A DNA stretch of 25,168 nucleotides from the IMG/VR virus record IMGVR_UViG_3300010354_010583, positions 1 through 25,168 of that record. One strand, written 5' to 3'. The stretch's first letter is position 1, and the number at the start of each line of letters is the position of its first letter. A program made the translations under genes and the position numbers. This document shows positions 2-24,700 of this stretch, one piece after another. Under the pieces are notes generated by a model. That model saw nothing but the letters and a program-made list of their open reading frames with translations, did not search any database and was not told where the DNA came from. This DNA is from a virus.

Positions 2-364
2 CCTGGAAACCTTTATCTGTTTGAATACAAAGCAACTTATGCTAGTAAAATAAATTACTATGATGAGTTTCCTTTAGTATACGTCACTCAAGGTGGTAAA
101 AGTTTTTCCGGCGCCAACTTACATTACTTAGGATATAAAGCAAGATTGAATGCCATTCTTCAATTGGAAGAAGGAGTTATGGAAATTCCTCCACAGTGCT
201 ATCATAATTATGTGCAAGCAGGACTAGAAACTCCACTATTTAAAATAAATAGAGAAGACTATAAGAGCGCAATATTTCTTCCTGTTGAAAATTTTGTATC
301 CAGAAAGAAAGATTCTTACAAACAATTAAGCAAATCCTTTGTCTGGGGAGACAGTAAGAAATGA
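2..364 (+). CDS. Conserved phage protein, 5' end missing (C-terminal 120 residues)
   Basis: The reading frame is open from the left edge (position 2) to a TGA at 362-364, so the true start lies upstream of the window. The TTG at 146 is internal and should not be taken as the start. The visible part reads PGNLYLFEYKATYASK, then a YYDEFPLVYVTQGG segment and a SGANLHYLGYKARL segment, ending in a basic, lysine-rich tail. No membrane segment is seen. The tyrosine-rich pattern with FPLV and LHYL resembles a conserved protein I associate with T4-like marine phages, but I cannot name its function. Its TGA overlaps the next ATG (ATGA at 361-364), implying translational coupling with the tail-tube-like gene and suggesting a structural or assembly role. 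It is not recognisably gp53. Confidence 0.75.
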   Translation, partial: PGNLYLFEYKATYASKINYYDEFPLVYVTQGGKSFSGANLHYLGYKARLNAILQLEEGVMEIPPQCYHNYVQAGLETPLFKINREDYKSAIFLPVENFVSRKKDSYKQLSKSFVWGDSKK

Positions 365-1188
365 CAACATCAATTAATGAAAATCAGATTCCAAATTTTA
401 AGGACTTTAAATCATACATTCAAAAGTTTGGATTTAGTCTAAGTAATTTTTATGATGTTAATTTCTTTCTAACTAATGGAACGAAAGGAAGTCTCGCAAA
501 TATTTTTAATAGAATTCCAGGAACTGATTTAGCAAATGCAAATGATGCTAATAATGCTAAAGGATTAATGAGATTGTATGCAGAAGAGTGTACAATTCCT
601 GGATATCAAATTAGCACAGGAGAGTTTAGAATTACCAATAGTCCCACCATGAAATATGGTTACGGAATTGTAAACAATGAAATTACTTTTTCATTTATTA
701 TGGATGCGGGTTCTGAAATTAGAAAAACTTTTGATGCTTGGCAAGCATACATTTACACACACATTGCTACCAACAACACTATTCCAAACATAACTTTAAA
801 TCCAAATTCAGTTAGTCAACTTGGACGCACCAGATATAAAGATGAATATGTTTCTGATATACAAATTATTAAATTTGAAAGATATGCTTCTAACTCTGGA
901 TTAATTCAAAAAAATGGAGAAATAAATAATTTCTTAAAAGGATTCCACCCAACCAAAGATATTATTCCAGATTCAACCGAAGATAAATCTTCTGGGTTTG
1001 GAAAAGCTATTCCAGTTTATTCTGTGAGACTTAGAAATGCTTTTCCAACAAACATTTCTTCTATGAGTTTGTCTAGTGGGTCTTCTCAATTATTAAAATT
1101 GCAAGTAACCTTTGAGTATGATTTGGCAATTCAAAGCAGTCTGTCTGGTAATTCTACAACTTCTGGTTCTTGGCCAACTGTAGTTTGA
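361..1188 (+). CDS. Tail-tube-like baseplate protein (gp19/gp48/gp54 type)
   Basis: This 275-aa protein contains, at about residues 71-130, the segment LYAEECTIPGYQISTGEFR followed by a tyrosine/glycine-rich stretch and FSFIMDAGSEIRKTFDAW. That pattern is typical of the tail-tube fold proteins of T4-like phages, including the tube subunit gp19 and the related baseplate proteins gp48 and gp54. At 275 aa it is longer than the T4 tube subunit (about 163 aa) and a little shorter than T4 gp54 (about 320 aa). With the adjacent hub genes, this favours a tube-initiator or tube-cap role where the baseplate meets the tube. The C-terminal third is serine-rich. The start ATG at 361 overlaps the upstream stop, and GGGGAGA about a dozen bases upstream may act as ribosome binding site. 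Which of the gp19/48/54 paralogues it is cannot be settled by eye. Confidence 0.7.
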   Translation: MTTSINENQIPNFKDFKSYIQKFGFSLSNFYDVNFFLTNGTKGSLANIFNRIPGTDLANANDANNAKGLMRLYAEECTIPGYQISTGEFRITNSPTMKYGYGIVNNEITFSFIMDAGSEIRKTFDAWQAYIYTHIATNNTIPNITLNPNSVSQLGRTRYKDEYVSDIQIIKFERYASNSGLIQKNGEINNFLKGFHPTKDIIPDSTEDKSSGFGKAIPVYSVRLRNAFPTNISSMSLSSGSSQLLKLQVTFEYDLAIQSSLSGNSTTSGSWPTVV

Positions 1189-1229: not shown

Positions 1230-1940
1230 ATGCCATTACCAAAAATTGTTGCACCAACTTATGAGTTGCAATTGCCTTCAACCGAAGAGACTATCAGATA
1301 TAGACCATTCCTAGTTAAAGAAGAAAAGATACTTCTTATTGCTATGGAATCTGAAGATGAAAAACAAATGACGAATGCAGTTAAAGTTATTTTAAAAAAT
1401 TGCATTCTTTCTAAGATTAAAGTTGATGATTTAGCAACATTTGACATTGAATATTTGTTTCTCAATATCAGGGCAAAGTCTGTTGGTGAAGAGATTGAAA
1501 TTAATATTACTTGTCCAGATGATGGTGTGACTCAGGTTCCTGTTTCTGTTAATGTTGAAGACATTAAAATTGAAAAGGATAAAGAACACAATAAAATTAT
1601 TACGGTGACTGAGGATATTTCTGTTGTTATGAAATATCCTAGTATGGAAATGTTTGTTAAGAGTAATCTTGTTTCTTCTGGGAAAACCGAAGATGTTTTT
1701 GAAATTGCTTGCTCCTGTATTGACCAGGTAATTGAGGGTGAGGAAGTCTATGAATTTAAATCTTTCACCAAGAAAGAACAAATGGATTTCCTTGAGAGTT
1801 TTGATACGGCACAATTTCTAAAGATTCAAAAGTTTTTTGATACAATGCCTAAACTTTCTCATACTGTTAAGGTTACAAATCCAGAAACTCAAATTGAAAG
1901 TGATGTTGTAATTGAGGGACTTGCAAGTTTTTTCGCCTAG
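1230..1940 (+). CDS. 26: gp26-like baseplate hub / tail assembly protein (zero-frame product)
   Basis: This 236-aa protein starts APTYELQLPSTEETIRYRPF, followed by LVKEEKILLIAMESED, and has an internal ITCPDDG. This matches the T4-type baseplate/gp26 family (Pfam T4_baseplate), somewhat longer than T4 gp26 (208 aa). T4 gp26 is a hub-assembly factor. By position, just before the tape-measure-like genes, and by the frameshift at its end, it corresponds to the G-type tail assembly chaperone of lambda. It has no signal peptide or membrane segment, is rich in acidic residues and lysine, and is probably cytoplasmic. The ATG at 1230 follows the late promoter by 24 bp and lacks a visible Shine-Dalgarno sequence. 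The last codons (TTT TTC GCC TAG) sit on a T TTT TTC heptamer that probably gives a second, longer product. Confidence 0.88.
   Translation: MPLPKIVAPTYELQLPSTEETIRYRPFLVKEEKILLIAMESEDEKQMTNAVKVILKNCILSKIKVDDLATFDIEYLFLNIRAKSVGEEIEINITCPDDGVTQVPVSVNVEDIKIEKDKEHNKIITVTEDISVVMKYPSMEMFVKSNLVSSGKTEDVFEIACSCIDQVIEGEEVYEFKSFTKKEQMDFLESFDTAQFLKIQKFFDTMPKLSHTVKVTNPETQIESDVVIEGLASFFA
1928..1934 (+). promoter_or_regulatory. Programmed -1 ribosomal frameshift site (TTTTTTC)
   Basis: The zero frame reads AGT TTT TTC GCC TAG, so positions 1928-1934 are the textbook X XXY YYZ heptamer T TTT TTC. The -1 frame has a stop (TGA) at 1913-1915, and the zero frame stops at 1938-1940. A -1 shift can therefore join the two frames only within 1916-1937, which is where the heptamer lies. 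Beyond it, the -1 frame stays open for 62 codons to TAA 2120-2122. A short CTAG-centred imperfect repeat follows directly, but I see no convincing pseudoknot. Confidence 0.82.
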
Positions 1941-2122
1941 TCCTAGCGCATGAATCTCTTGAAAATTTTTTCAGAGTTAACTTTGTTTTGATACAACACC
2001 ATAAGTGGAGTTTAACTGAATTGGAAATGATGATTCCTTGGGAAAGGGAAATATATGTGCAAATGCTCATAGATTATATTGAAGAAGAAAATAATCGCAA
2101 TAAAACATCACAGTCGTTGTAA
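1934..2122 (+). CDS. 51: gp51/GT-like extension, read only by -1 frameshift from the gp26-like gene
   Basis: After a -1 shift at 1934 the ribosome would add 62 residues to the first 235 of the gp26-like protein, giving a 297-aa fusion. The extension contains HESLENFFRVNFVLIQHHKW, then SLTELEMMIPWEREIYVQML and an acidic end (DYIEEENN). The pattern of paired histidines, a proline-tryptophan turn and a C-terminal acidic helix is what tail-assembly chaperone T regions and short cyanophage gp51-like proteins look like. No ATG lies in this frame before 2027, inside the conserved part, so independent initiation would give only 31 residues. The stop TAA abuts ATG 2123 of the tape-measure-like gene, as in lambda G-T-H. 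This frame is the only coding candidate between 1940 and 2123. The function is inferred. Confidence 0.78.
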   Translation, partial: RLVLAHESLENFFRVNFVLIQHHKWSLTELEMMIPWEREIYVQMLIDYIEEENNRNKTSQSL

Positions 2123-4891
2123 ATGCCACAACCAACCATCAAACCTTTGATTAAGATAACTTCCTTTATTGGAAGGGGTAGAGGAGGCGGAGGCTCTGGA
2201 GGTGGAGGGGGTGTACTTTCATCTAGTGGTCAATTTGGTTCACCCGAATTAAACGAACTGAGAAAGATTAGACTCAATTTAGTTACTCTTCTTGATATAG
2301 AAAAAGCGCAAACAAAATATTTGGGAGATAGAATATTAAAGTTTGCTAGAAGTGACGAAAGAAAAAAATTAAAGAAGAGAGAATCAGCACAAGAGACAAA
2401 AAAAGGAACACAAACAAAATCAGATACTCAAAAAAATCCTATTGTTAAAGGATTTTTCAATGGGTTGCAAGGATTGTTTAGTTTCTTTGGAAATATTTTC
2501 AAAGCGTTTCTTGGATATAAAATTTTAGAATGGGTTGCAAAACCCGAGAATGAAAAAAAAGTTCAAGATTTTGTAAAACTTATTGGTGGAATATTTAAAT
2601 TTATAAGTGCAGTAGCCGGATTTGGTATAGATAAATTACTTGGTGGTATTTCAAAGATTTTAGACGGCGGAGGTATAACTAGAATCTTTGGATTTTTAGA
2701 AGCTGTTGTTGGATTTTTTACTCTTAAGTGGTTATTAAATCCAACAAAAATAATTTCTGACATTGCAATGATTGGCAATCTTTTTACAAAAACGATTCCC
2801 AATGCAATCAATGCGGTAGTTAATTTCTTTACTAAGATTATTCCAGGAGCTGCAGCATCAGCTGCTGATGATGCATTAAAAGAATCTGCGAAGGGTGTTG
2901 GAGATGCTTCTAAAACTGCAGTAAAGGGTGTAGAGGGTGCTACTACCGCAGCTGCAAAGACTGGGACTGCGGTCGCAAAAACTGGAGCTACTGCTGCAAA
3001 AGGTGCCGCGGCTGGTGCTGCCAAAGGTGGTGCGAAAATAACAGGGAAAAGTTTACTAAAAGCATTACCAATTATTGGTGCAGTATCTAGTGGAATATTT
3101 GCTGCAGATAGGGCATTCAAAGGTGACTGGTTAGGTGCTGGAATGGAAGTGGCGTCTGGTGCCGCTGCTTTGATACCTGGGTGGGGAACTGCAGCATCAT
3201 TAGGAATTGACGCTGCGTTGATTGGTAGAGACATCGCCAAAGAGCAAGGAATTCCAATGCTTGCCAAGGGTGGTATTGTCACCAAACCAACTCAAGCAAT
3301 AGTAGGAGAAGCCGGCCCAGAAGCTATTTTACCTTTAGATAAACTTGGTTCATTTGTAGGATTGAATAAGTCCGTAAGTGATACGGTTCCTAAGTTCATG
3401 AAACTTTTGACCATTCCATTTACAATTGTTGGAGCAGGTCTTGTATCATTAATATCATCTTCTTTGTCACTAATACCAGGAATTGGTCCTTTACTGACTC
3501 CGATTATTGGCAGTATCGCATCTACATTTGGAATTCCAAGTAGTATTGTAACTACTCTCGGAAAAGTATCTGGAGGTGTTGCAAGTCTAGTTAGTTCTGG
3601 TGCTAGTGGACTTGCTGAAATATTTGGCTTAAAGGACCCATCAGTTAATATGAGAGCAGGTTCTCGTTTTACTTTGAAAAAGGACAATAGTATTAGAGGA
3701 TTGCTTGCTAATATTCTTGGAGCATTAGTGAGTAAGTTGCCAAAAGAAAAGGAAGTTACTCCTGCACCAGCCCCAACCGCGACACCCACGGCGGCCGCGC
3801 CTGCTTCTTCTCCTTCTCCTTCTCCTGCACCTCCCCCCGCAGCCGCAGCTCCACCGGCATCCCCAACCCCTCCAAAAAATAATACAGGAAGTGTTGGTGG
3901 ATATGGCATAGGAGATAAAGTTCCTGCCTTGTTAGAACCAGGAGAATATGTATTAAATAAAAATGCTGTCCAGGGTGTTGGTGGTGCTAAAGTTTTGGAC
4001 CACATAAACCATAGGGTATATCCAAGATTTCAAACAGGTGGTTCCGTAACTCTTTTAACTTCTGGGGGAGGAACAAGTGCTCTAAAAACACCAGTTCAGT
4101 TTACACACTTGAGACCACACCATGGTACTGGAGATAGTAATAGGGCATATGGCATTACAAAAGATTACATATTAGATGGCTCTAAGTATCCAAATTATAA
4201 AGTTCCAACACCAGTTGCTGCTTCAGTAAAATTCGCTGGGTCTAATCCTGGTGGATATGGAAATATGGTTGAGTTGACGGATGACAAAGGCAGACCGTTG
4301 GCATTGTTTGGACACTTCTCGAAATTAATGGTTAAAACTGGAGACAAATTATCAGCAGGAGATATCCTTGGTATCCAAGGAAGTACTGGAAAATCTAGTG
4401 GTCCGCATGTTCACATTGATGCATCTAAAAAGTTTCATGAAACTTGGGCAAATTATGTTCTTGGAGTAAAGAGTAGTCTGGATGCTAGTAGTTTAGTTAA
4501 TGGTCCTGGATTATCTGGTCAAGATAGAACTACAGATTCAGATTCCGAACAACAAGAAGACCCAGAAATTTGGAACAAACTTGCTGCAAGTCTTCAAAAT
4601 CTTTTCAAAGCATTTAATCCTTCGGATACACCAGCATCAACACCTGTAGCTCCTGCAGCTAAAATTGATACTACGCCAAGTTCTTCTTCACAAACATTAC
4701 AATCTGTTCAAAAACAAAATAATCAAATCCAGTCACAAAATAGACAAACTTCTGCAAAACCAGCTGGTAACGTAGTTACTGTGGGGAATCCAAATCAAGT
4801 AATTCAATCTAGTGCAACACAACCTATAACCCCATCTTTGGGGGCAAATCTACCTCCAGTTTCCACCATACTAACTTCAACGAAACCATAA
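2123..4891 (+). CDS. Tape-measure-like virion protein with C-terminal M23 peptidase domain
   Basis: This is a 922-aa protein. In order it has a Gly-rich N-terminal linker (about 19-31), a charged helix (43-95), hydrophobic helices (106-240), an Ala/Gly/Lys-rich region (245-310), and a tape-measure motif KGGIVTKPTQAIVGEAGPEA (382-401). A second motif follows, PALLEPGEYVLNKNAVQGVG (601-620), after a Pro/Ala/Ser linker (546-585). An M23/LytM-type metallopeptidase domain covers about 655-785, with HHGTGD (666-671), GHFSK (730-734) and PHVHID (761-766), the last supplying the HxH zinc ligands. Such domains cut peptide cross-links in murein, here presumably during injection. The C-terminal 130 residues are Gln/Ser-rich. 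It occupies the gp29 (ruler) position and is partly paralogous to the next gene. The ATG follows TAA of the frameshift product directly (TAAATG), suggesting coupling. It could instead be a hub protein beside another ruler. Confidence 0.82.
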   Translation: MPQPTIKPLIKITSFIGRGRGGGGSGGGGGVLSSSGQFGSPELNELRKIRLNLVTLLDIEKAQTKYLGDRILKFARSDERKKLKKRESAQETKKGTQTKSDTQKNPIVKGFFNGLQGLFSFFGNIFKAFLGYKILEWVAKPENEKKVQDFVKLIGGIFKFISAVAGFGIDKLLGGISKILDGGGITRIFGFLEAVVGFFTLKWLLNPTKIISDIAMIGNLFTKTIPNAINAVVNFFTKIIPGAAASAADDALKESAKGVGDASKTAVKGVEGATTAAAKTGTAVAKTGATAAKGAAAGAAKGGAKITGKSLLKALPIIGAVSSGIFAADRAFKGDWLGAGMEVASGAAALIPGWGTAASLGIDAALIGRDIAKEQGIPMLAKGGIVTKPTQAIVGEAGPEAILPLDKLGSFVGLNKSVSDTVPKFMKLLTIPFTIVGAGLVSLISSSLSLIPGIGPLLTPIIGSIASTFGIPSSIVTTLGKVSGGVASLVSSGASGLAEIFGLKDPSVNMRAGSRFTLKKDNSIRGLLANILGALVSKLPKEKEVTPAPAPTATPTAAAPASSPSPSPAPPPAAAAPPASPTPPKNNTGSVGGYGIGDKVPALLEPGEYVLNKNAVQGVGGAKVLDHINHRVYPRFQTGGSVTLLTSGGGTSALKTPVQFTHLRPHHGTGDSNRAYGITKDYILDGSKYPNYKVPTPVAASVKFAGSNPGGYGNMVELTDDKGRPLALFGHFSKLMVKTGDKLSAGDILGIQGSTGKSSGPHVHIDASKKFHETWANYVLGVKSSLDASSLVNGPGLSGQDRTTDSDSEQQEDPEIWNKLAASLQNLFKAFNPSDTPASTPVAPAAKIDTTPSSSSQTLQSVQKQNNQIQSQNRQTSAKPAGNVVTVGNPNQVIQSSATQPITPSLGANLPPVSTILTSTKP
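3763..3875 (+). repeat. GC-rich low-complexity Pro/Ala/Ser linker, with a three-unit TTCTCC repeat at 3808-3825
   Basis: This stretch within the M23 tape-measure-like gene is much richer in G+C than its surroundings; it includes GCGGCCGC at 3791-3798. It encodes alternating Pro, Ala, Thr and Ser residues. Three exact TTCTCC units (3808-3825) encode Ser-Pro repeats in frame. The 6-bp unit means length changes would preserve the reading frame. It acts as a flexible spacer between the tape-measure part and the PALLEPGEY/M23 part. Confidence 0.7.
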
Positions 4892-4892
4892 G

Positions 4893-7808
4893 ATGGCAAT
4901 ATCTTCTCCGATTAATAAAGCATCATTTACAAATCCTTCGATTCTCAAAGAGTTGAAGGCTATTAATGTTGTGACAATGCAATTAAATAATGAGAAGAAA
5001 AAGAGATTCAATCTACAAAAAAAATTTGATGGTTTAATTGATAGATATGGAGAAAGAACATCGTATGATGAAAGAGAATCTGCTCAAGAAAAGAAAGATA
5101 CTCCAGTAGGAAAATCCTTTAAAAAATTTGTAAAGAATCAGTTCATGGGATTGGGTTCATTTTTATTTGACCTGATGAAAGTTTTTATTGGATATAAAAT
5201 TTTAGAGTGGGCTGCAAACCCAGAAAATTTACAAAAAGTTATTGGAATTGTGAAAGGTTTATCTGGTATATTTAAATTTATAAATTGGTTTGCTACTGGT
5301 TCTATAGATAATGCATTGAGTGGGTTACATAGTTTGTTATTTGGCGGTTCAATCTTAGAAAGAATTTTTGGATTCTTTAAAGCAGTTATTGGTTTTTTTG
5401 GAATCAGATATCTTTTAAATCCACTTAAAATAATTAAGGATTTAAATACTATAATTAAAAATGGTGATAAAATAGGTGAAGTTTTTAGTGCATTTAGAAA
5501 GAGTGGTATTGTTTCTGGAGTAGAAAAACTTCTCCAATCTTTACCAAAAACTGCTTCTGTTTTTAAACATGGATTATCAAGAGGATTGACTAGGGGTTTA
5601 TTAAAAGTATTTGGAAAAGGAGGATTTCAATTTCTTTCTAAAATTGCTGCAAAATCCGCGCCGACTGTAACCAAGTTTTTAGTAGAACCAATTAAAGCAT
5701 TTTCCAAAAAGACTGTCGCTGGAATACCTATTGTTGGTCCTCTTCTTAGTCTTGGTATTAACTTGGCACTTGGAGACCCAATTGATAAAGCCATCATAAA
5801 GACTGTTGGTTCTACTCTTGGAATGGGATTGGGTGGTCTAATTGGTTCAGCTATACCAGGTCCAGGAACTATAGTTGGTGGAGTTCTTGGAGGATTGTTA
5901 GGTGACTGGGCAGCATCTACTCTATATGATTGGGTCAAGGGAATGTTCTCAAAGCAAAAGACTCCAGAACTTGCCGCTGGTGGTATCGTAACTAGACCAA
6001 CCAAGGCAATTGTTGGTGAAGCTGGGCCAGAAGCAGTGGTTCCCTTATCACAGTTATATAGCGGAGATGTTTTTTCTGAACCTTTAGCTGTAATGGGTTC
6101 AGGATTGATTGGAGCAATTGATGCATTTGTTTCTTCGTTGGGAACAACTGGGGTCATGATACGACCATTTTCTAATCAGTTACTCGCACCATACTCAAGA
6201 GAATTTGGTTCAAAGTCTTTTGTTTTTAATTCTGATATAGGTAAAAATTCAAAAGTAGTATTACCTACAGGAAAAAAAGAAAATAATTCTAAAGATAAAG
6301 ACATTAATAAAATTTTAGGAAATAAAGAACCAAAGTTATTGACTACTAAAGATACAAATCCAAGAGCAAGATACAATAGTGGAAATAGTGTCTTTGCATT
6401 ATTGGGAGACATCTATAATAGTTTAGTAAATTTAGATTTTGATAATAAAAATATCAATGTCAATAGAGGTGGTAACGGAGGGTCTGGCGGCGCTGGCGGC
6501 GGTGGAATGCTTCCTGGAGACGCGCCCCCTGAAGTAAAGGCGATGCTTGATGCAATTGCTGGTGGAGAAGGTAGTTGGAATTCTGTTAACCCAAGTTTAA
6601 ATGTGCCTGGATTAAGTGATATGACAATCGCCCAGGCGAGATTAAAAGCTTTAGAAGTTTCTCGTGGTAAAGGTTCTGGAGCGATGGGCAAGTGGCAACA
6701 AATGCCTCAGTTTATCTTAGAAAGGGCTCGTGACGCTGGATTAGACCCAAATAAAGATAAGTTCAATCAGGAAAATCAAACTAAGATTGCTAGAATGTTG
6801 ATGGCAAGTGTGTATCCTGGTGGAGAATCACAATTAGTTAAGGATGCACAAAGGGACCCATTAGCTGCATCAGCCAAATTAAGAGGAACTTGGCCATCTT
6901 TGCCAGGCGGCAGTCAAGAGAATGCTCATAGTAGAGGATTTTTGGCAAGATATAATACAAATGTTGAAAGGTATCAAAAGATGCAGACTGGGGGAGCAGT
7001 ATTTGACCCCAGAAAATATCAAGAAGGAATGAAAAGTTCCAGATATATTACAGTTGGGACTAATGAAAATGCCAAATCATATAGTATTGGATATGTAAGA
7101 GAGGGTTCCAGTGGGACCTATACAATTAAATCAATCAGTAAGAAAGTCTCTGGAAATTTATTTGGTGGGGATAATTTAACTTCTGTAAAGATAAGTAGTG
7201 ATGAAGGGAAGAGAGTTTTAAATTCAGCAAATGTTAAAGATTATTTCAGAACAGTTCCTAATGGGGGATTATCTAGAAATCTTAAACTTGAATTGAAACC
7301 AGATGCACAATCTGATATTTTCTGGGCATATAATCAATCGTATCAAACAACTAAAAATGAATGGTTGAAGAAAGGAGTTTCTTTAGAACAGGCAGAACAA
7401 TATGCTGCCTCTGCTGCAAAGGAATTTGTTCTTACTAGAAGAGGAGCATCATGGAAACCAGGTTCCAGTAATGGTTTAGATGGAAAACTTGGTGATACTT
7501 CTGTGTCGGGTCCATCAGAAACTTCTTCACAAAAAGAAGATGATGTTAACTGGACTAAGATGGCTCAAAGTCTTGTGAATTTATATCAAGGATTTAACAA
7601 GACCGATGGAAATTCATTGAGCAAAAATAGTATGGATATGGTATGGTCAATGAAACAACAACCATTTATTTCCGATACATATATTATAACTCCAGGTACA
7701 ACTACAATTTCGAATGTTAATTTAATAAATCCTTTACCTGCAGTAGACTATACACCCTTATCATATTCTCAATTGGATTCTCATCTCCTACCAAAACGTA
7801 ATCTATAA
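4893..7808 (+). CDS. Tape-measure-like virion protein with internal lysozyme-like domain
   Basis: This 971-aa protein is paralogous to its upstream neighbour. It shares the charged N-terminal helix ending ERESAQE, the hydrophobic block with IGYKILEWAANPEN (99-112), a GFFGIRYLLNPLKIIKDL segment (167-184), and the tape-measure motif AGGIVTRPTKAIVGEAGPEA (362-381). A Gly-rich linker (526-538) leads to a lysozyme/transglycosylase-like domain (about 545-695) with AIAGGEGSWNSVNPSL (likely catalytic Glu559) and SGAMGKWQQMP (595-605). The C-terminal third has KEDDVNWTKMAQSLVNLYQG (881-900), matching a segment at the same relative place in the neighbour. The likely role is tail ruler or hub component that also cleaves glycan strands of murein. 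The ATG lies one base after the upstream TAA. No clear Shine-Dalgarno sequence is seen. The exact glycosidase family is uncertain. Confidence 0.8.
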   Translation: MAISSPINKASFTNPSILKELKAINVVTMQLNNEKKKRFNLQKKFDGLIDRYGERTSYDERESAQEKKDTPVGKSFKKFVKNQFMGLGSFLFDLMKVFIGYKILEWAANPENLQKVIGIVKGLSGIFKFINWFATGSIDNALSGLHSLLFGGSILERIFGFFKAVIGFFGIRYLLNPLKIIKDLNTIIKNGDKIGEVFSAFRKSGIVSGVEKLLQSLPKTASVFKHGLSRGLTRGLLKVFGKGGFQFLSKIAAKSAPTVTKFLVEPIKAFSKKTVAGIPIVGPLLSLGINLALGDPIDKAIIKTVGSTLGMGLGGLIGSAIPGPGTIVGGVLGGLLGDWAASTLYDWVKGMFSKQKTPELAAGGIVTRPTKAIVGEAGPEAVVPLSQLYSGDVFSEPLAVMGSGLIGAIDAFVSSLGTTGVMIRPFSNQLLAPYSREFGSKSFVFNSDIGKNSKVVLPTGKKENNSKDKDINKILGNKEPKLLTTKDTNPRARYNSGNSVFALLGDIYNSLVNLDFDNKNINVNRGGNGGSGGAGGGGMLPGDAPPEVKAMLDAIAGGEGSWNSVNPSLNVPGLSDMTIAQARLKALEVSRGKGSGAMGKWQQMPQFILERARDAGLDPNKDKFNQENQTKIARMLMASVYPGGESQLVKDAQRDPLAASAKLRGTWPSLPGGSQENAHSRGFLARYNTNVERYQKMQTGGAVFDPRKYQEGMKSSRYITVGTNENAKSYSIGYVREGSSGTYTIKSISKKVSGNLFGGDNLTSVKISSDEGKRVLNSANVKDYFRTVPNGGLSRNLKLELKPDAQSDIFWAYNQSYQTTKNEWLKKGVSLEQAEQYAASAAKEFVLTRRGASWKPGSSNGLDGKLGDTSVSGPSETSSQKEDDVNWTKMAQSLVNLYQGFNKTDGNSLSKNSMDMVWSMKQQPFISDTYIITPGTTTISNVNLINPLPAVDYTPLSYSQLDSHLLPKRNL

Positions 7809-9147: not shown

Positions 9148-9366
9148 ATGTCTAAAGAAACTATCGATTCTCACATTCAACACGACATTGATGAACTTGA
9201 TAATCCAAACATCAATAGTCAACGTCGTAGACATTTAGAGATTGAGTTAGACCAACTCATGAGATATAAGGATACACATCCAAATGAAGACAAAGACCCA
9301 ACTGGTCTAGATTTATATTGTAATGATAATCCAAACGCACCTGAGTGCCGTATTCACGATATCTGA
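9148..9366 (+). CDS. Small acidic conserved phage protein between hub and spike genes
   Basis: This 72-aa protein is acidic, with an N-terminal predicted helix carrying an RRR patch (SQRRRHLEIELDQLMRY) and a C-terminal segment DLYCNDNPNAPECRIHDI with two cysteines. It resembles short hypothetical proteins of cyanomyoviruses that end in a similar CxxNPxAPEC motif; I do not know a function for them. It begins 3 bp after the gp27-like stop and ends 4 bp before the gp5-like start, so it is co-translated with both. Its position suggests a hub assembly factor or a minor hub subunit, which is inference only. No signal peptide or membrane segment is seen. AGGGCA upstream of the ATG is at best a weak ribosome binding site. 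Confidence 0.72.
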   Translation: MSKETIDSHIQHDIDELDNPNINSQRRRHLEIELDQLMRYKDTHPNEDKDPTGLDLYCNDNPNAPECRIHDI

Positions 9367-12320: not shown

Positions 12321-12656
12321 TTGGATAAACTTGGAAAACATTGTGTAGCTGAAGTTTACGGTTGTCAGCATGATATTCTAAATGATGAGGAATTACTCGT
12401 CGAAATGTTCACAGAAGCAATTAAACTAGCTGGTGCAACATTACTAAATATCGCATCTCATAAGTTTGAACCGCAAGGTGTTACTATTGTTGCGCTTCTT
12501 TCAGAGAGTCATATCAGCATTCACACTTGGCCAGAAACAGGTTCAGCTGCTTTGGATGTATTTACTTGTGGAATTAGTAAACCAGAGTTAGCACTACTTC
12601 ATTGCATCGAGATTTTAAAACCAACAGAGTATAATATGAATTGTTTCGATAGGTGA
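12321..12656 (+). CDS. speD: S-adenosylmethionine decarboxylase proenzyme (auxiliary metabolic gene)
   Basis: This 111-aa protein is the bacterial class of AdoMet decarboxylase. It makes decarboxylated AdoMet, the aminopropyl donor for spermidine synthesis. Visible hallmarks are an N-terminal [12 protein letters not shown], the processing site [12 protein letters not shown] with cleavage expected between Glu62 and Ser63 (Ser63 becoming the pyruvoyl cofactor), catalytic His68, and Cys83 in LDVFTCG. Key residue positions fall at the numbers known from the Thermotoga maritima enzyme; the C terminus is shorter than that enzyme's (about 130 aa). The start must be TTG 12321: an in-frame TGA lies at 12312-12314 and the first internal Met is residue 29. 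GGTGAAG upstream may serve as a weak ribosome binding site. It is probably transcribed with the tRNA from promoter 2. speD is known from cyanomyoviruses, where it is thought to support polyamine supply during infection. Confidence 0.93.
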
Positions 12657-12706: not shown

Positions 12707-15700
12707 ATGGCTTTAACAAGAGTAACATCTGGTGGTATTGCTCCAGGTGTCGTAATTAAATTCGATAGTAATAATACGCCAACATCTCCTGCATTTTCAT
12801 TCAACGGCGATGAAAATACGGGTATTTACCAATCAGCAGCAGATGAAATCTCTATTTCCACCGGCGGTGTTAAGAGATTAACAATCGGGTCAGACGGAAA
12901 AATTAAATCTTTCCGTGATGCTAGTGACACAACTGGTTCTATTCTGGGTGGTACTAACCCAGACTTTGTGAACGCAAAGAATATTATGCTTTATGTCAAC
13001 CAATCCGACTTGAATGCTACGGATTCGATTGACAATGATGGTGGTAACGTAAATAAACCCTTCAAAACTATCGAACGTGCTTTGTTGGAGGCAGCGCGTA
13101 GAAGTTATATTGCAGGAACAGCAAATGATAAGTTCGAGGCATTTACCATCATGGTCATGCCTGGTGATTATACAATTGATAACAGACCAGGTGTTACTGG
13201 AACACTTTCGACTAATTTAACATTCACCAATTTCGAATCTGAACTCTATAAGTTCAACCCTAAGAATGGTGGTGTTATCGTTCCTAGAGGTACTTCCATT
13301 GTTGGTTATGACCTAAGAAAAACTGTTGTTCGTCCTAAGTATGTTCCAGACCCAGCAAGTGCTCTAGGAAGCGACACTGGAGATTCTCTAGGAATCAGCC
13401 ACGTCTTATATGATGCGGCTAACATGATTGAAAGAAACCGTGGATATATTCAAGAACAATCCCAACTTTCAATCGCCGCAACAGCAGGTTATACTGGACT
13501 TACAGCTACTCAAAAAGCATATTGCATTCGTGATATTGGATACTTCATTGATGGTATCATTGCTGACCTTCGTACTGGTGGAAACGCAAACTCATTTATC
13601 GTTGGTGAGTTCTATACAAATGGAACTACTAATCAATTCTTAAATAATGCAAATGAAATTTCTGCAACTGTATCTGCATTTAACTATGCAAGAGACCTGA
13701 TTATTAAGGCAGCACACAACTGGTCAGGTTCGTATGCACACACTCCTCTTTCTGGTGCTACAGTAACTAAGACTACATTTACGGGTGGAGTTGATTACAC
13801 TGTAGGAAATGGTGACTGCTCTACCGTCGATTCTGCAGTAACAGTTCTTGCTGCAATTGTTACTGGTATCATTCAAAACCCAGATACCTATACAACTCTT
13901 TACAAAAAGACTCCTGGTGTATTTGAACAGACTTCCATCTTTAAGGTAACTGGTGGTTGCTATTTCTGGCAGATGACCTTTAAGGATGCTCTAACAAATC
14001 CTTATAAGTCTGTAACTTATTCCTCGGGTATTCCAACATTTACTCAAGCATCAACCACTGCTTATTCTCACCACAGAGTTGTTGCATTTACATATGCAGA
14101 CCAGAGAACAACTGATGGTGAACTGGACGAATACTACAAGAAAATTGACCTATGGGATACCACAATTGATGGTGGTAACGCTAGAGAAGTTAAGAAGGAA
14201 GAATACGAAATCGTTGGTGATAGAAGCAGAAATACCACGATTGATACTGTCAATTCTTGCTCACCATATATCTTCAACTGTTCTCTACGTTCTGTCTTCG
14301 GTCTATGCGGTATGCATACCGATGGTAGTAAGGTTGCTGAGAACAGCTTCAAGTCGATGGTTGTTGCACAGTTTACTGGTATCTCTCTACAAAGAGATAA
14401 CAATGCATTCTTCCAACCAAAAGACCCAGAAGGTGATGGAAACAACTCTGCATACAATGACCCAACTGGTACTACCAATCCACCAATTTATGCAGACCCA
14501 GATGCTGAATATCGTCCAGATTGGAGACACTTCCACATCAAGGCATCGAATGGTGGTTTCATCCAGGTAGTTTCGGTCTTCGCAGTTGGTTACGCTGACC
14601 AGTTCCTAGCAGAGTCTGGTGGTGATATGTCCATCACCAACTCTAACTCTAACTTCGGTCAAATCTCTCTGCGTGCTAAGGGTTCTCAGTTCACTTCGTT
14701 TGCTCCTGCAGCAAACGGTAAGATTACTGCTCTTATTCCACCAAGAGGTATTTCTTCTACTGCATCGAATGTTGAATTCTATGCAATTGATTATTCCACA
14801 ACATGGGAGAAGAACGGACAAGGAGATAAGAACTACAACGCTAACTTAATTTCAAATTTCACATCTAACCTTAATAAGTTTAGACTCTATCTTGATATTG
14901 GTGGATTGAACTCAGAAGGAGATATTCCAGAACTTGTTGTTGAGTCTTTTGATTATGCGACTAGCACAACAGTAACTAAGAGATATCTTAACTTTGGTTC
15001 GAACCAGAATTACAATCTTTTCAGAGATTACTACACAACTTCTGGAACTGTTAATGCTTCAAATGCAAAAATTCAAACCACTGTTGAAACAGAAACTGGT
15101 GGCGTAAATGTATACACCGCAAATGTTCTTCTAACAGGCGAAACAAGTGCTGAAACCTCTGGAAATAACTCTCAGAGACAAGGTTACTTCTGGGACGCAA
15201 CTGAAAATAAAATTTACATCAAAGTAAATTCAAACGATTCTGCAACTCAGTCATTCCTAAACAACTATATCTTCTCTACTACAACTGAATCTGTATTCAC
15301 GACAACTGAGACAACAAATGCAGACGGTTCTATCTCCATCAAAACTGGTACTACCAACATTCAAGTATTGCAATACTTTGATGGATTCCCATCTACTCTT
15401 GCAACATCCAAGTATCTAGATAATAGAACTTCTTCTCCATCAGATTTACTCTGGAGAGTTGAATACACAATTCCAAAAGGTCTGACAACTATTCCAAAAC
15501 CACCTGAAAAGAGATTTATTATTAAGGGAACTAGACCAGAAAATGGTATTGATGGAATGCCATATACTGATTATCGTTTCATGATTTATGACGTTGAGGA
15601 AATTACATCTTGGGAAAAAGATACCAGAGATGGTGTCTATTATCTAACTGTTATTCGTGCTGATATTAATAAGTTTGTAGATAACACTTCAAACGTTTCT

Positions 15701-18700
15701 AGCACTATTACCAGAAGACCAACTGGTTTGTCAAACATGACAACTGGTTCCTTCACTACTTCTAAGATTGAAGAAGTTAATAATTACGACAAAGATACAA
15801 GAGTTGCTTCTAACATCAACTATCTCTATCCTTCTATTAACGAAGAGGGTCCAACTTATGATATCAAGAAAATTTGGAACCCACCACAAACCGATTCTCG
15901 TGTTCTAATTGAAGCTATTGGAAGTGGAAGAAGAGTAAAAGATTTATCTGTTCCGAATGGAATTTACTACAGAAGTTCTGGCACTGTAGGAAGCACTGGT
16001 TCTGCAGCTCCATTTGCAGAAATTCCTTCTATGGCTTCTGTCACTGCAGAATCTGTCCATAGATTAGTTCAGTGTCTAGACCTATATTATACACAAACCA
16101 CATCTGCTGCCTCTTCCAGAGTTGCTGTTTCACCTGTTCTAGGATGGGATTACAGAAAAGGCGGTAATGGATTTGAAACTGATGTTAACATTTATGGTAC
16201 AGGTTCTTTCAGAAGAGGTCCTACTGGAGTAACTTATTCTATTAGTTCTACAGCAAGTGAAAATACTTTTGGTATTGATAACGAACCTTCATTCAGAAGA
16301 ATTGTTGTTTCTACCAAAGGAGCAGTAGGAATTGTAGATTCTAACCTCCAAGAGAAAGCGCCAACGGTTCCTCTTTACAGACCATCTATTCTCCGTGCAT
16401 CTTCACACACTTGGGAATATGTCGGTCTAGGTTCTGGTAACTACTCAACTGGTTTCCCAAATCTACAGACAAGAGTTCTAAAACCATACGAGCAATTCAT
16501 CGCTCAGGGTTATGAGAATGCTGGTGGTTTCGTTGCTTCTACTGGTACTAACTCTAATGGAGACCAGTATGTTGGAAACCAAGTCATTCAAGCTGGTGGT
16601 ACTTCAACAGTAACTCTAAACGTACCTAAAGTTCGTAAGTCTTCCGAGTCTAACTACGTTGACATCACCAACATTGAAAACAGAATTTCTAACTCTGTTG
16701 TTAACGTAACAGCTTCTACAAGCAATAAGAGTTCTTCTTCTCAGTCTGCACTTAAGGCACTTTCTAACTTCTTCAACACTGCTAAACTCAGTGTTACTGA
16801 CCGTGCTACAATTCAGAACTTAATTGTTAATTCTAGACTCTATATTGCAAATACCAGAATTAATAATGGTCCTCAGTTCCCTGAAGCAAATACAGAAGCA
16901 TATGGTTTCGTTAAGGCAGCAAGACCAGAGAAGACTGGTTTCATCTCAACTGATACTAACGACAGACTCTATGTTTCTCCTAAGTTCCTTGATGCTTGGA
17001 GAATCAAGAGACAACTTGTTTCTGCTTCAAACGTAACTCTTGACAATAATAGAATTTATATTCAACCATTGGCAAGAACGTTGATTGATGGAACATCAAC
17101 AACTACTTCAACTGCTCTTACTACTACAACTTCAACTATCCTTGTTAAGGAATCTGCTGGTATTCCTTCCTATGGAGATATTGATGTTGAGATGACTCTC
17201 AAGTATGTAGAGAATGGAGATTATAAGATTGATGGCGGCGTTAACGTTTATTTAAATCCAAAAATCAATATTTCTCTAAGTTATTCTTCTGTTGATTACA
17301 CAACAAATGAAATTGCATTAGATGCAAATCAAAACTATATTGCAAGACAAACATACCTACAAAATATTCTAGGAACTTCTGGATACAATACTGTTATCAA
17401 AAACTGGTCCAGCCCAATTGATGCTGGTTCTGATGCAAGTGAAAAGGATGTTAAGTACCTTCGTTCTATTCTTACAACAAGCGTTGCTGTAGATACAGTT
17501 GGTAGTCCATCTCCATCTTCCCCATATACTATCACCATTTCAAACACAAATGGTGAGTGGACCGTCTTCCCAGATAGAGGTTGTGTAACTCTTCGTGAGT
17601 ATCCAAAGGGTGGAAGCTTTAGATATTCCACATATGTTTACTACAAAGGTTCAACCACTGGAGAACTTAAACTAATTAGAAAAGTTCCAAACGCTTCTGG
17701 AAATGATTCTGGTCACACATATTCATCTACATACAACAATGGTTATGCAGGTATTGAAGAAAGAAACGTATTCTTTACTGGTTGCACAACCACAGTTTCT
17801 TTCGCTGATAGATGGGCAAGAGAAGAACCATTTATTCCTTCTGTCGATTCTCTATCTGAAGATGTTGACCTAGAAGCAGCAACTCTATACACAGTTCCTG
17901 AAAAAGTTGTCGCTTACACTGGTGAACTCGATACGACCTATGTTAATAACAGTCTACCAAACCCATTCTCTGCAAAAGCTTTAGGTGTTAACCTACAGAA
18001 CAGACAAGCAGTTAAAAAGTTTGCTCCATTTGCATATCTAAATCAAGTTCAAACTTGGTGTGAGAATTCTGGATTTGGAACAAGTGAAAATGTTGAACTT
18101 CTCATGAAACCAGGATACTATAAGTTAGATGGTTCCACATTCCCATGTACAATTACAATTAATGGTTCTGGTCTCGTAAAGAGTAGTATTTTTGCAGGTA
18201 AAGAACAAACTGGTACATCCGCTGGAAGAGTTGGTGGATATCTAGAGGATAGTGTTAAGAGAGGTGATACCATCTCATTCTATCGTGCTCCTAGTTTTGG
18301 TGACCAATACGGTCAAAATACCGATAGAATGTATGTTAGTGTTGGCGGAGGAATTACCACAAAAGGAGGACTTAATCTTTCCAACGTTAACTTCCTCGGA
18401 TTAAACGAAGCAGTCACCAAGAATGAAATTCTTGATGAATTGTATACTACAGATACTAGACTTATTGAAGCTAGAAGAACCGTAAGAAAGGCATTCTACA
18501 TCAAAGATGTCATCAAGAAAAATGATTCCACATATACTAATTTGTCTTTAGACAATGCATATGGAACATTATCATTTACTGCAAACACAACCTCTGGCAC
18601 AGGAAAAGCAAAAATCGATTGGTATCTAAACAGTACTAATATTGCTAACTCTGTCTTTGGTACAACAAATTTTGCAGAACTTAATTCTGCAGATAAGACA

Positions 18701-21700
18701 ACTGCCAGATACATGGTTCTAACTCTGAATGCTTCGGATTTTACCAGCACTACAAATGGAACTGGTCAACCAGCAATTGCTTCTCCATCGCAGAGATTTA
18801 TCTGGGCAAGAAGATACATCATTCCTGGTACAACCATGTACTGGTTCCCAAATCTAGCAGATACTGCAAATATTAAAATTTCGGCAAGTGCAAAATCTGG
18901 TAAAGTTCTTGCAGTAAGATATACAAATCTTCAATCTTCAACAAATCCAACCAGCGGAAATTGGTCCACTAGTGGTGAAAAGATTGAAATTCTATTATCT
19001 CTATATCAAACTGCTTCTGGAACAACTGGAGGTAACCAATCAGCATACACAAACGCTACGGAAGACCTAGATGTAACTTCTTATAATAACACTCAAGATG
19101 CAAAGATTACATTCTTGCATCAGGATAACTCAGAGTTTACAACTCTTGCATACAATTGGGCTGTTAATAATAGAAAGTCATTCTTACCAAAAGGATTCTC
19201 CTATAATGGTGGATATCAGGCGGGAATTATTAAGACAATTTCTTCCTCCAGCACAGCAAGCACACCAGATACCATTACATTTAATGAGGATATTTCGGAA
19301 CTTCAAGTTGGTGATATTGTTTATGGAACCAACATTGCATCTGGAACAACAATTTCTATAATTAATACAGGAACCAAGACAATTACATTATCTGATGACA
19401 CTACAGGAACTCTAACTGCAGGTGCAAAAGTTTCATTTACTCAACTTGATAATTTTGGAAATGTAATTACCAAATATGATAGACCAGAAATTTTTGGTGT
19501 CACCAACGGTTTTGAACAGGGTAGAATCAACTTGGTAGTTGACTTGAATCCAAGTTATGAAACAGACCCATCTATTCAACCATATCCATCTAGAAACTTT
19601 AGTTCTTATAAAGCAGTCATAATGCAGATGAAGGATTCCTTCACAACATCTGTTGCTGGTGCTGCGCTAGAAGATGGTGCAATTACTATTCCATATAAGT
19701 ATAGAGGTTTCAGAAGAATCACTGGATTTGTTTCCGACAGATTCTTACTTCTAGAGGTTGACCCAGGAAGCATTGCATCCAGTTCTGACCCAACCACTGC
19801 AAATACTTCGGTAACTCCATATATCGATAATGCTGGTTTCGATGCTGCAATTCTTTCTCAGTTTGCTTCTTATACTCCATTGACAATCGCTGGAGGTGGC
19901 GGAAAGGGTTCAGGATTTACATCAAATACTGTATCACTTTCTAATGTAACCAGCACATCATCTCTTGCTTCATCTTTAACTGCTGCAATCACAGCTGGTG
20001 GTGCAAATTATAATGGTCTTGCCACCGTGACTCTTTCTGGATTGAGTCAGGGTGCAGGTGCTATCTTCTCGGTTTCCATTAATAGTTCTGGTGCGATTAC
20101 GGCAATTAACGTTAGTGGCACAATCACAACTGGTTATACAGGAACTGCAACTATCACAATCACTGATAAGAAAGGTTATATTAACGTTAACGGAACTACT
20201 GTGAACCTCCTATCAACAAGTCTTGACGGAGACCAGTTTACAGCAGTTGCAAAAGAAAACTTACTTACTGGATTAAATGGTGCATCTCCTTATCTAAGAA
20301 CAGGAAGTACTCAATCAAATGCATTTGGTAAGAACCTTTACATTTCCTGGCCATATTGCTACAGAACTTTAAGAAAGAGATTCCTCTCTGCATCACTACC
20401 AAACATTGGTAACTTCTGTGCTCCAATTGTTAACGTTGATGCTATTCCTGGTTCAAACGTTCCTCTTAACTTGTCTGGTGTTACTATCGGGGCACAGTCT
20501 CCTTCAGATACTTCTGCAAACACATTTGGTGGTGGATATTCTGGTGGTATTATTCGCTCCAGAGGTGCAAGACTCACTCTTACAGGAACAAGATTTAGAG
20601 GAAATCTTTCTCTTGAGTGGACTGGTCTTCTTTATACTGGAGAAACCAGAAGTGGAAGTGCTGGTGGCGCTCAGTCATTCACCTTCGGACACTCTGTTGA
20701 AATGTTGCAAATGGAAGATTCCAACTCCTTTGCTAGAGTTGGTGGTACTCCTGCAACATATATCGGTACTTCCAAAGACGACGAAGACTTCAGAAGAATT
20801 ACTGAATTTAGACCAGATACAAACCTCTATCTAGAACCATCCAAAGACCCATATGGAAATCTTTGTGATGGTGACGGTAGAACATTCCCAATGACTACCT
20901 ACCAGGCAATTAAGAGATTTAACCAAAACACATCTTCAATTACTATCGACGGAACGACGATTGCCTCTGGCGGTCTCATGACCAAGATTCAGTTGAGTGA
21001 GAGATATCAGGCTCCATATCCAATTTTCTATGATGATACGACAACAACAACTCCATCAAGTGGCAGCGCACTAGCAACTGCTTCTTCTGGTAGTGCATCT
21101 GCTGTAAAACTCAGATGGAATAATTCCTCTAGTTCTACACTATCTACTGGAAACTCCGTTGGTGGTTCTCTTGCTGCAAAACAGTTATCATTCCTATATC
21201 CTGCAGATACAACTGAAGGTAGAGACTTAGTTGGTAATATTTTCCTTGGTGCTTTTGCTACAAAATTTGTTAAGACCACCAACATTGATACAACATATGC
21301 AACTGTAACAAAGGTTGAACTACCAGTACAAAGATATACTTCTGCTGGAGTAGCAAGTAGTTCTGGTCCATACAGAATGGCACTCGTTAAATATAGTGGA
21401 AACATCCCTGTATCTGCTGCGAATGGCAATTCCATTCAGTTGTTTACCACATACTTAACTTCTAGAAGATATAAGTATGTCACAACCACAACTTCTAGAT
21501 ATGCTAAAGAAAATACAGCCGGACATTCTAAACTAAATCTTGCTGCAACTGGAACTCAATATGCTGTTCATGGGGATGTTAAGATTGAAGTAACAGGAAC
21601 CATGACGGCAAATATTACAAGACAAAATGTTTATTATCTTGTAAATACCAGAGCAGGTTCTGTTGCCGGTCAGTGCAGACTATCTACAAATAATTCTGGA

Positions 21701-24700
21701 CAATTAACATCATTTGACTTCCTCGATTACGGTTCTGGACATTTAGAAACAGATACATTCAGCATTCAAACCGCTGCTTCTGGTGGAACTGTTGTTACTA
21801 CTGGTATCACTCTTACTGCAGTAAGAAATCTCACCGATGATATTAAGATTTTCAAACCAGGTGAATACTTCGGTGTTCTTCCACAAAACTGCTTTGTTCT
21901 CAACAGTATCAACAATCCATCAATTTCCACACTTAAGACTGAACTACAAAAAGCAAAACTAATTTTTAGACCAGGTAGTTTCATTCAACAAGGTAGTACC
22001 TACTATAAGATTGCTAAAGATGACACAAGCAATGGTACTGTAACTGGACAACTTGGAAATAAACCATATATTGGCATTTACAGATATATCAGTGAATCAA
22101 ATGTCTCGGACATTCGTGCAAATATTGTAATCATGCTTGAGGACCAAGAGTATACTCCTACATGGTCAGGAAACACTAGATTTGACATCTTCGATGCTGA
22201 TAACCTCCTCGACTACTGGCCAACAAGTGGAAGGATTACAATTGGTAATCTAGAAACTTGCGATTTTGTTAAGGGTGGAGACCCAACATCCAATACTGGT
22301 TATACCTTAACTCTAACCAGAAGCATGACCAAATACTGGCCAAGTTACATTCGTGACTGGGAAGGTTTGGACCCTAACGATGCATTGTCTGAAACTGTTA
22401 CAGTTGAATCGTTTATTCCAACTGAAATCAGACTTGCTGACCCAATTGATATTACCTGTTTTGGATTGAAGAGAATTCTTCCTGCTGGTACTCAAATTTC
22501 AACATCGACTGTTCCATCATTTGTCTCACCAACTGGTGTTATTTCTACCTCTGTTGCAAAAGTTTCTATTCCTTCAACAAATGTTGATGCTGACTTTGAG
22601 AAACTATCGGTCGGTCAAATTGTAACGATTCCATATAAGAATCTATCATCCTTTACAGACTGGGCAAGTTGCACAGTTACAGTAGGTGCAGCTAAAGGAA
22701 CAGCCGGTTCTAATAACTCTTCCAATAGAGCAGGTGACCTAAGAATTTCTGGAAGAATTGCAAAATCACAAAATCAATATTATGTTTACTATAACTATCC
22801 ATTCCAGATTTTTGGTTCTTCAGTTTCCAACAGCAATATCTTTAACTCAGTTAACCCACTAACAACTGCAAAACTATATTCTTCTCCTGGTGGATACACT
22901 GGACTTGCAGGAAATGCCTTCCAGACAGGTGCTGGTGGATTGAGACTTTATAATTACTTCTGGTGTCAAGCAAATGCTACAGCCGCGGGAGGTTCTGCAT
23001 CGTTAACTGTTACATCTGCATATGATACAACTTCCATTTCAACAAATGGTACATTCACTGGTACAATTGGAACTCCAGATGCGAATGGAAATGCATTGTT
23101 AACGGTATCTTCAATGTCTACTGGTGGTCTATTTAGAGGTCAACAAGTTAGAATTACAAATACTTCTGGTACTATAGTTGGATATGTTACTGGTGTTGCT
23201 GGAGATGATTTTGATTCTTACAAATCACTAACAAATAATGCACTTCTAACTGGTAGAGGTGGTGCTGGTACATATATCGTATCTGGTGCTACTGCAACCT
23301 CGTCCCAGTCTCTATTTGGTACATGTGCTACTGGTCCTGGTGACTACATTGTATACTATGAAGGTCAGACTGGTTACTGGCAAAGAACAATTTCTAGCAA
23401 GACTGTAGACGCTAACGGAGTTACTACTCTCACATTAAACACCACTACAACAAATAATACTCCTGCCGGAAGTTGGATTCTTATCTATGTTTATAACTAT
23501 TTCGATAACAACGTAACGTTTACCCTTGATAAAGCTCTGAGTGCCGATATTACGGCTGGAGATACATTTAAGATTATGCCATCGCTCAATATTCAAGATG
23601 GTTCTTATGGTGCATATTATCCAAGAACGGAAAATTCCTTCTTGTTCAAGTCTAAGATTATTGATATCGATAAGACAGCAGGTACTTCAGTCAATCTTTA
23701 TCTTGCAGACCCACTCCCAGAAAACTTTAATGATACAGACTGCAGACATTATGGTATGATGTTTATCAACCATGGTGGATGGACTTATCCTAAGACTGGT
23801 GGTTCTTCTTTCCGTGTCAATAACGTCACTCTTGGTTCTACCACCACTACTATTACACTTCCAAATAGAAGTGGAAGAATTCAACCAGGTGATAACTTAT
23901 CCTATACATGGGAAGACGATTTAACTGTTCTTGCCAGCGGAAGTGGAAATATTACTTGTGCAACAAATAGTGCTACGGTTACTGGAACCAGTTTTGATAC
24001 ACAATTATGGCCTGGTTATAAACTTTATAACTCTTCTGATGTCTTAATTGGAACAGTTTCATCTATTCAAAGTGCTACTTCATTAACTCTTACTGAAAAT
24101 GCAAAAGTTGCGGTTTCCAACAGTACATGGAAGTATACTTCAATTGGTGGTACTGTAACCTACAGTGGTAAGATTACTGCAGTTGGTTCTGTTGATGGAA
24201 ATGGATATGCACAAATTACACTTGATACCTCTTCTAACCACATTCTTTATTCTACATATCCATTTAAGAAAAACTGGTTAAGTATTGATGAAGTATTTGT
24301 AAGTCACAGAACTGGAAACTTTGCAAATGACGGTCCTGTTGCTGATAAGTTTATCTACAGCGATACTGGTGTTAAACTTCAATTTGGTGATTATAATATG
24401 TGGTATGAAAACTATAGTAACTATATTTCTTCACCAGATGGTATTACGGGCAGACAAGGATGGGTTGGAAACTTCGGTATTACAACCAGTGGAAAACTAA
24501 TTGATGGTATTTCATTCAATGGTTCATCTGCAGTTCAGTGGGGAAGACAATATAATTCTTCTCTATGGTTGAGTGCAGTTCCTGTACACGCAAGATGGCA
24601 GTCTGCATCTTTTGCTCCATATATGTCAAGTATTGAAAGTAATGCTTCCTTTGAATCTGTATTTGCTCCAAATACTCAAGCAATTTATGATGGTGCAGGA

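Follow-up and report, generated by a model that had tools for sequence, protein, structure and literature searches.

Tail assembly chaperones and frameshifting

In phage lambda, the tail assembly chaperones G and GT are produced by a -1 frameshift close to where the first ORF terminates; the extension has no start codon of its own, and the tape-measure gene comes next. The lambda slip sequence is G GGA AAG, and we know of no Shine-Dalgarno-like (SD-like) stimulator described for it. In phage P2 (E and E+E′) and its relatives, T TTT TTG or T TTT TTC codes for Phe-Phe, and an extension of about 60 codons is followed by the tape-measure gene. In a host gene, dnaX of E. coli, the slip sequence A AAA AAG is preceded at about 10 nt by an SD-like element and closely followed by a hairpin.

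Vladimirov, Gautam and Davidson (2022, doi 10.1016/j.virol.2021.11.003) identified the tail assembly chaperones of T4-like phages, as cited in PMC10274946 (PRFect) and PMC12846349, and the latter paper (2025) credits the same work with poly-T slip sequences in T4-like TAC-N genes (TAC-N, tail assembly chaperone N-terminal protein). Thus, the family assignment and at least some of the frameshift sites are known, and the earlier note on the DNA analysed here, which did not know of a frameshift described for the gp26/gp51 pair of T4-like cyanophages, was only partly right on this point. According to PMC12846349, the -1 frame stays open past TAC-N in all genomes of the Vandenendeviridae and Andersonviridae, a GTTTTT motif is invariant there, and this locus is cited as similar to the T4-like TAC-N. 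These are other phage families, and stimulator elements are not described for them in the parts of PMC12846349 used here.

The gp26-like locus and its surroundings

The window, i.e., the whole stretch of viral DNA that was analysed (25,168 nt), carries a gp26-like gene from which, as far as can be judged from the sequence, a programmed -1 ribosomal frameshift very probably yields two forms of a tail assembly chaperone. The features of the locus are as follows.

361..1188, + strand: tail tube protein, 5′ of the chaperone gene (PF23849, E 3.4e-10; phrog_45, 1.8e-30)
1230..1940, + strand: predicted short form, gp26-like TAC-N, 236 aa (PF12322, 8.5e-73; phrog_150 "baseplate hub", 3.3e-79)
1914..1918, + strand: SD-like GAGGG, whose 4-base core GAGG ends 10 nt 5′ of the heptamer; a likely frameshift stimulator (anti-SD pairing across 54 clusters)
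1928..1934, + strand: slippery heptamer T TTT TTC, in phase with the gp26-like ORF (direct reading; 156/156 relatives with a -1-frame gp51)
1934..2122, + strand: gp51-like -1-frame extension, 62 codons plus TAA (phrog_634 "baseplate hub assembly catalyst", i.e., gp51, 4e-28; phrog_150 C-terminus, 1.4e-6; purifying selection in the -1 frame)
1938..1940, + strand: zero-frame stop TAG, one codon past the heptamer (direct reading)
2123..4891, + strand: tape-measure-like protein with an M23 peptidase domain, the putative chaperone client (position; PF01551, 1.8e-12; mixed PHROG matches including tape measure)

The gp26-like ORF ends with AGT TTT TTC GCC TAG, and in most relatives, too, the zero-frame stop stands 0–1 codon past the heptamer. 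The -1 frame is closed by TGA at 1913-1915, open over 1916-2119 and terminated by TAA at 2120-2122, directly before the ATG at 2123. Upon a slip, base 1934 would be read twice, giving a fusion of 297 aa (235 + 62). The first -1-frame ATG in the window is at 2027, with TTG codons at 1988 and 2021. The earlier note had placed the heptamer between the TGA and the TAG, counted 62 codons past the slip and a fusion of this size, and seen no -1-frame ATG before 2027; all of this was confirmed, the coordinates being right to the base.

The number of T TTT TTC heptamers was rejected as evidence in itself: the AT-rich window holds 10 of them against 13.7 expected by chance, so the sequence is not enriched, and its meaning rests on comparison, i.e., on its place and conservation. 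A second T TTT TTC lies at 1966-1972, in phase in the -1 frame (AAT TTT TTC AGA), where a further slip would terminate within two codons at TAA; it is absent from the nearest relatives and is therefore probably incidental.

The layout resembles that of lambda G/GT, with a short and a long form by a probable -1 frameshift, an extension without its own start and a tape-measure-like gene next. The likeness to lambda concerns the gene layout, whereas the slip sequences differ (G GGA AAG versus T TTT TTC). With P2 and its relatives, the window shares a T-rich heptamer for Phe-Phe, the approximate length of the extension and the next gene; homology between the extension and that of P2 E′ was found to be unsupported (hhalign of A6 against A7, probability 0.85%). 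With E. coli dnaX, it shares the SD-like element but not the hairpin.

The gene order tail tube, chaperone, tape measure is thus present, although the family evidence for the tape measure is mixed and its assignment rests on position. With 31% identity over 536 columns (E 4e-43), the ORFs at 2123-4891 and 4893-7808 count as paralogues, which suggests a tandem duplication of the tape-measure-like gene; the M23 domain is found in the first paralogue only. Two host-type metabolic genes are located within the tail region: a CP12 gene (PF02672) at 9148-9366 is flanked by tail genes, and 12321-12656 encodes an S-adenosylmethionine decarboxylase (PF02675, 2.4e-37). The virus is T4-like and probably has a cyanobacterial host, and the CP12 gene fits a cyanophage. 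An open frame of more than 4154 codons (12707-25168) runs past the window end; no Pfam match was found in the two pieces of it searched.

Conservation of the slip site

Relatives were collected from viral contigs and annotated phages as 200 gp26 loci with a complete end, of which 160 are distinct; a scan of viral contigs with the Nitratidesulfovibrio phage gp26 found no relatives. The gp51 profile matches the -1 frame in 156 of the 160, and every one of these 156 carries an in-phase heptamer, T TTT TTC in 139, T TTT TTT in 16 and T TTT TTG in one. The heptamer spans the Kyanoviridae, Pelagibacter phages, Schizotequatrovirus, Ceceduovirus, Menderavirus, Emdodecavirus, the Pootjesviridae and the Nitratidesulfovibrio phage, and the set takes in Straboviridae outside the T4 group. 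T is invariably the last base of the codon preceding TTT, whichever of S, D, N, A, T or H that codon specifies. Given the codon usage, a chance presence of T TTT at this position in 33 clusters (formed at 50% identity) has a probability of about 10^-11.7, a value to be taken as a guide rather than an exact test because the clusters are still related.

A different reading would make gp51 a separate short gene, translated from an internal start or by re-initiation at the gp26 stop, with the heptamer merely coding for a conserved Phe-Phe. Phe-Phe alone leaves unexplained why T TTT TTY stands at the junction in 155 of 156 loci (the exception having TTG), while elsewhere in gp26 just 5 of the roughly 158 Phe-Phe pairs are written in this way.

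The four remaining loci differ from one another. In L103, an internal stop in its gp26 accounts for the missing pattern, and in L019 the contig ends, the heptamer being present, so that neither is counter-evidence. In Vibrio phage K452 (1402-2405), an ORF in the -1 frame comes after the gp26-like gene, but there is no heptamer; the ATG of this ORF overlaps the stop, the neighbour genes differ, and this phage has possibly switched to translational coupling. Finally, in L057 (2001-2894), gp26 and gp51 are fused in frame; the slip site has disappeared, the sequence there being shorter by about two bases. The fusion is the sole copy found in its 236-kb record and may be real or an assembly error. 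A +1 shift in L057 would meet TAG at once; therefore, the short form might there be the shifted product.

The unbroken L057 fusion and the error-prone nature of homopolymer runs could be taken to mean that a single original ORF was split by sequencing error or gene decay. The identical split base in 156 distinct loci, finished isolate genomes included, speaks against this, and its probability is negligible.

Entry into the -1 frame

The question of a separate gp51 gene depends largely on where translation of the -1 frame could begin. Public records annotate gp51 as such (the P-SSM2 record is an example), no joined feature exists at this junction among the T4-like records inspected, and possible starts do occur: many relatives have an early in-frame ATG, which in many cyanophages is -1-frame codon 5, and some phages show a TAATG overlap. 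On the other side, no ATG is found within the first 17 codons past the slip in 75 of the 156 loci, 51 loci have no ATG, GTG or TTG within the first 15, and no start codon of any kind occurs in the -1 frame of the Nitratidesulfovibrio phage (L092). In the window, translation starting at the ATG at 2027 would drop 33 codons; selection acts on the first of these in start-less loci, the window included.

This selection was estimated for codons 3 to 15 in 14 start-less loci from cyanophages, a set to which the window belongs. The pN/pS ratio amounts to 2.47 for the zero frame and 1.01 for the +1 frame, but to 0.23 for the -1 frame; by these ratios, purifying selection on codons 3 to 15 of start-less loci is confined to the -1 frame. 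Moreover, the early ATGs lack a Shine-Dalgarno sequence: the mean pairing energy is -0.83 kcal/mol as against -1.16 for random positions and -3.54 for the own starts of gp26, and in the main cyanophage group the ATG lies inside a hairpin. Taken together, the start-less loci, the selection in the -1 frame and the early ATGs without SD sequences indicate that separate gp51 genes, as in P-SSM2, are probably annotation choices, and a separate gene is an improbable explanation of the locus, although free gp51 may be made to some extent in relatives with an early ATG.

The earlier proposal of a programmed -1 frameshift from the gp26-like to the gp51-like frame is, therefore, strongly supported by conservation, phase and -1-frame selection. 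Its suggestion to look for the heptamer across relatives gave the 156 of 156 loci mentioned above, while the expectation of a start-less -1 frame held for the 75 loci without an ATG in the first 17 codons, the others having early ATGs without SD sequences. The contrary arrangement, a start codon with no slippery site, is not the rule among relatives, where the heptamer is near-universal, but Vibrio phage K452 does lack the site.

Candidate stimulators of the frameshift

Upstream of the heptamer, pairing with the anti-SD sequence is stronger than expected: the mean over 54 clusters is -6.92 versus -5.16 in synonymous shuffles (z of the mean, -10.2). The spacing peaks across relatives with the SD-like core ending 10–11 nt before the heptamer (10 in the window), and the Glu of a conserved Glu-Gly is written GAG in 107 of 124 loci against a usage of 29%.

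Downstream of the heptamer, the folding energy is below that of synonymous shuffles (mean z -1.59, t -7.0), the excess of structure lying mainly in the first 60 nt or so, and control windows inside gp26 depart less (-0.2 to -0.6). An 11-bp covarying hairpin, beginning 5 nt past the heptamer, is found in 51 cyanophage loci. Its pair 21-35 is GC in 21, UA in 17 and AU in 10 of them, and changes on both sides occur in 32 cells versus 9.5 in shuffles. In the main cyanophage group, the hairpin encloses the codon-5 ATG. No downstream hairpin or other structure was detected in the window (z -0.08 to 0.82), and its nearest relatives are also without the hairpin.

These signals bear on whether the shift takes place on the ribosome at all. 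Transcriptional slippage is used by some bacterial genes, and an extra T inserted into the mRNA at the T6 run would yield the identical protein. A run of six bases is short for such slippage, however, and the site carries signals directed to the ribosome, namely the SD-like spacing of 10–11 nt and the hairpin at 5 nt, which makes slippage of the polymerase very unlikely.

For ribosomal frameshifting, we lean towards the view that in T4-like chaperone genes it is driven by a dnaX-type signal, consisting of an SD-like element at fixed spacing and, in most cyanophages, a covarying hairpin that hides a false gp51 start. On this view, the signal would be ancestral, and both the two-gene form of T4 and the L057 fusion would have escaped from it later. 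A literature search, which covered Vladimirov, Gautam and Davidson 2022 through the papers citing it, found no account of the SD-like element or the hairpin, and this stimulator anatomy is possibly new.

Protein families and fold

The family matches of the two frames (see the feature list) are complementary: on the 282 positions of phrog_150, the zero-frame match covers 5-232, and the -1-frame match picks up at 228-276. Pfam matches of the extension (Stealth_CR2, DUF6760) were discarded as weak and scattered; that of DUF6760 with about residues 14-59 (A6 alignment, E 0.11-0.12) may be a remote link. A PDB sequence search with gp26 gave nothing relevant, and no second gp26 copy was present among the ORFs scanned in the window, the 25-kb record being partial.

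AlphaFold2 models of the window gp26 (pLDDT 86) and the L057 fusion (pLDDT 90) are confident. With the gp26 model, the HK97 tail assembly chaperone 2OB9 ranks top of 350,542 PDB chains, at an E-value of 0.48 and with poor overall superposition. With the fusion model, the highest probabilities among the matches listed belong to 3FGX, described as a chaperone (PMC9603447), and to 2OB9, with E-values above 5 (5.5). The modelled likeness to the chaperone fold thus provides hints that are not significant by E-value; a BFVD search returns other baseplate hub proteins.

Comparison with gp26 and gp51 of T4

T4 gp51 (249 aa) matches PF12322 over residues 1-201 and phrog_634 over 147-246, with the alignment continuous through the junction; as it spans both families, it represents a long form encoded by a single ORF. 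The short form, T4 gp26, is encoded on the opposite strand; its gene ends with G TTC TTT, where the -1 frame is closed immediately. The two forms of T4 and those predicted for the window, therefore, belong to the same protein families, but T4 has two full genes on opposite strands and has lost the slip site, whereas the window has one gene and the slip site. The link to G/GT-type chaperones put forward in the earlier note gains support from the gene order and from T4 gp51 as a one-ORF long form, and weakly from the fold similarity to the HK97 protein.

A proposed mechanism and its implications

The sequences show the site, its phase and conservation, the selection and the homology; we infer slippage, an efficiency at which it concerns a minority of ribosomes, and a chaperone role. 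Most ribosomes would terminate at TAG 1938, giving the 236-aa gp26-like short form (TAC-N). The remaining ones would slip on T TTT TTC, from TTT TTC to TTT TTT, and read on for 62 codons to give the 297-aa long form (TAC-NC), so that the helical gp51-like tail would not be produced as a free protein. Slippage is probably promoted by base pairing between 16S rRNA and the SD-like element, at a distance of 10 nt upstream, by analogy with E. coli dnaX; the downstream hairpin would be an additional element in most cyanophage relatives, absent from the window. By analogy with lambda G and GT, the short form would coat the product of the following gene, the tape-measure protein, and the tail tube protein would be recruited by the long form.

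The locus is best regarded as an unannotated frameshifted tail assembly chaperone, real and well supported, from a family already known together with some of its frameshift sites. This speaks in favour of gp26/gp51, the "baseplate hub" pair of T4-like phages, acting as chaperones, and it suggests that the arrangement of one gene with a frameshift is widespread, the two genes of T4 being a derived exception. The short "gp51" gene in many records of cyanophages and other T4-like phages would then stand for a free protein that is probably made rarely or never, and the upstream and downstream elements offer a testable model for how the ratio of the short to the long form is set.
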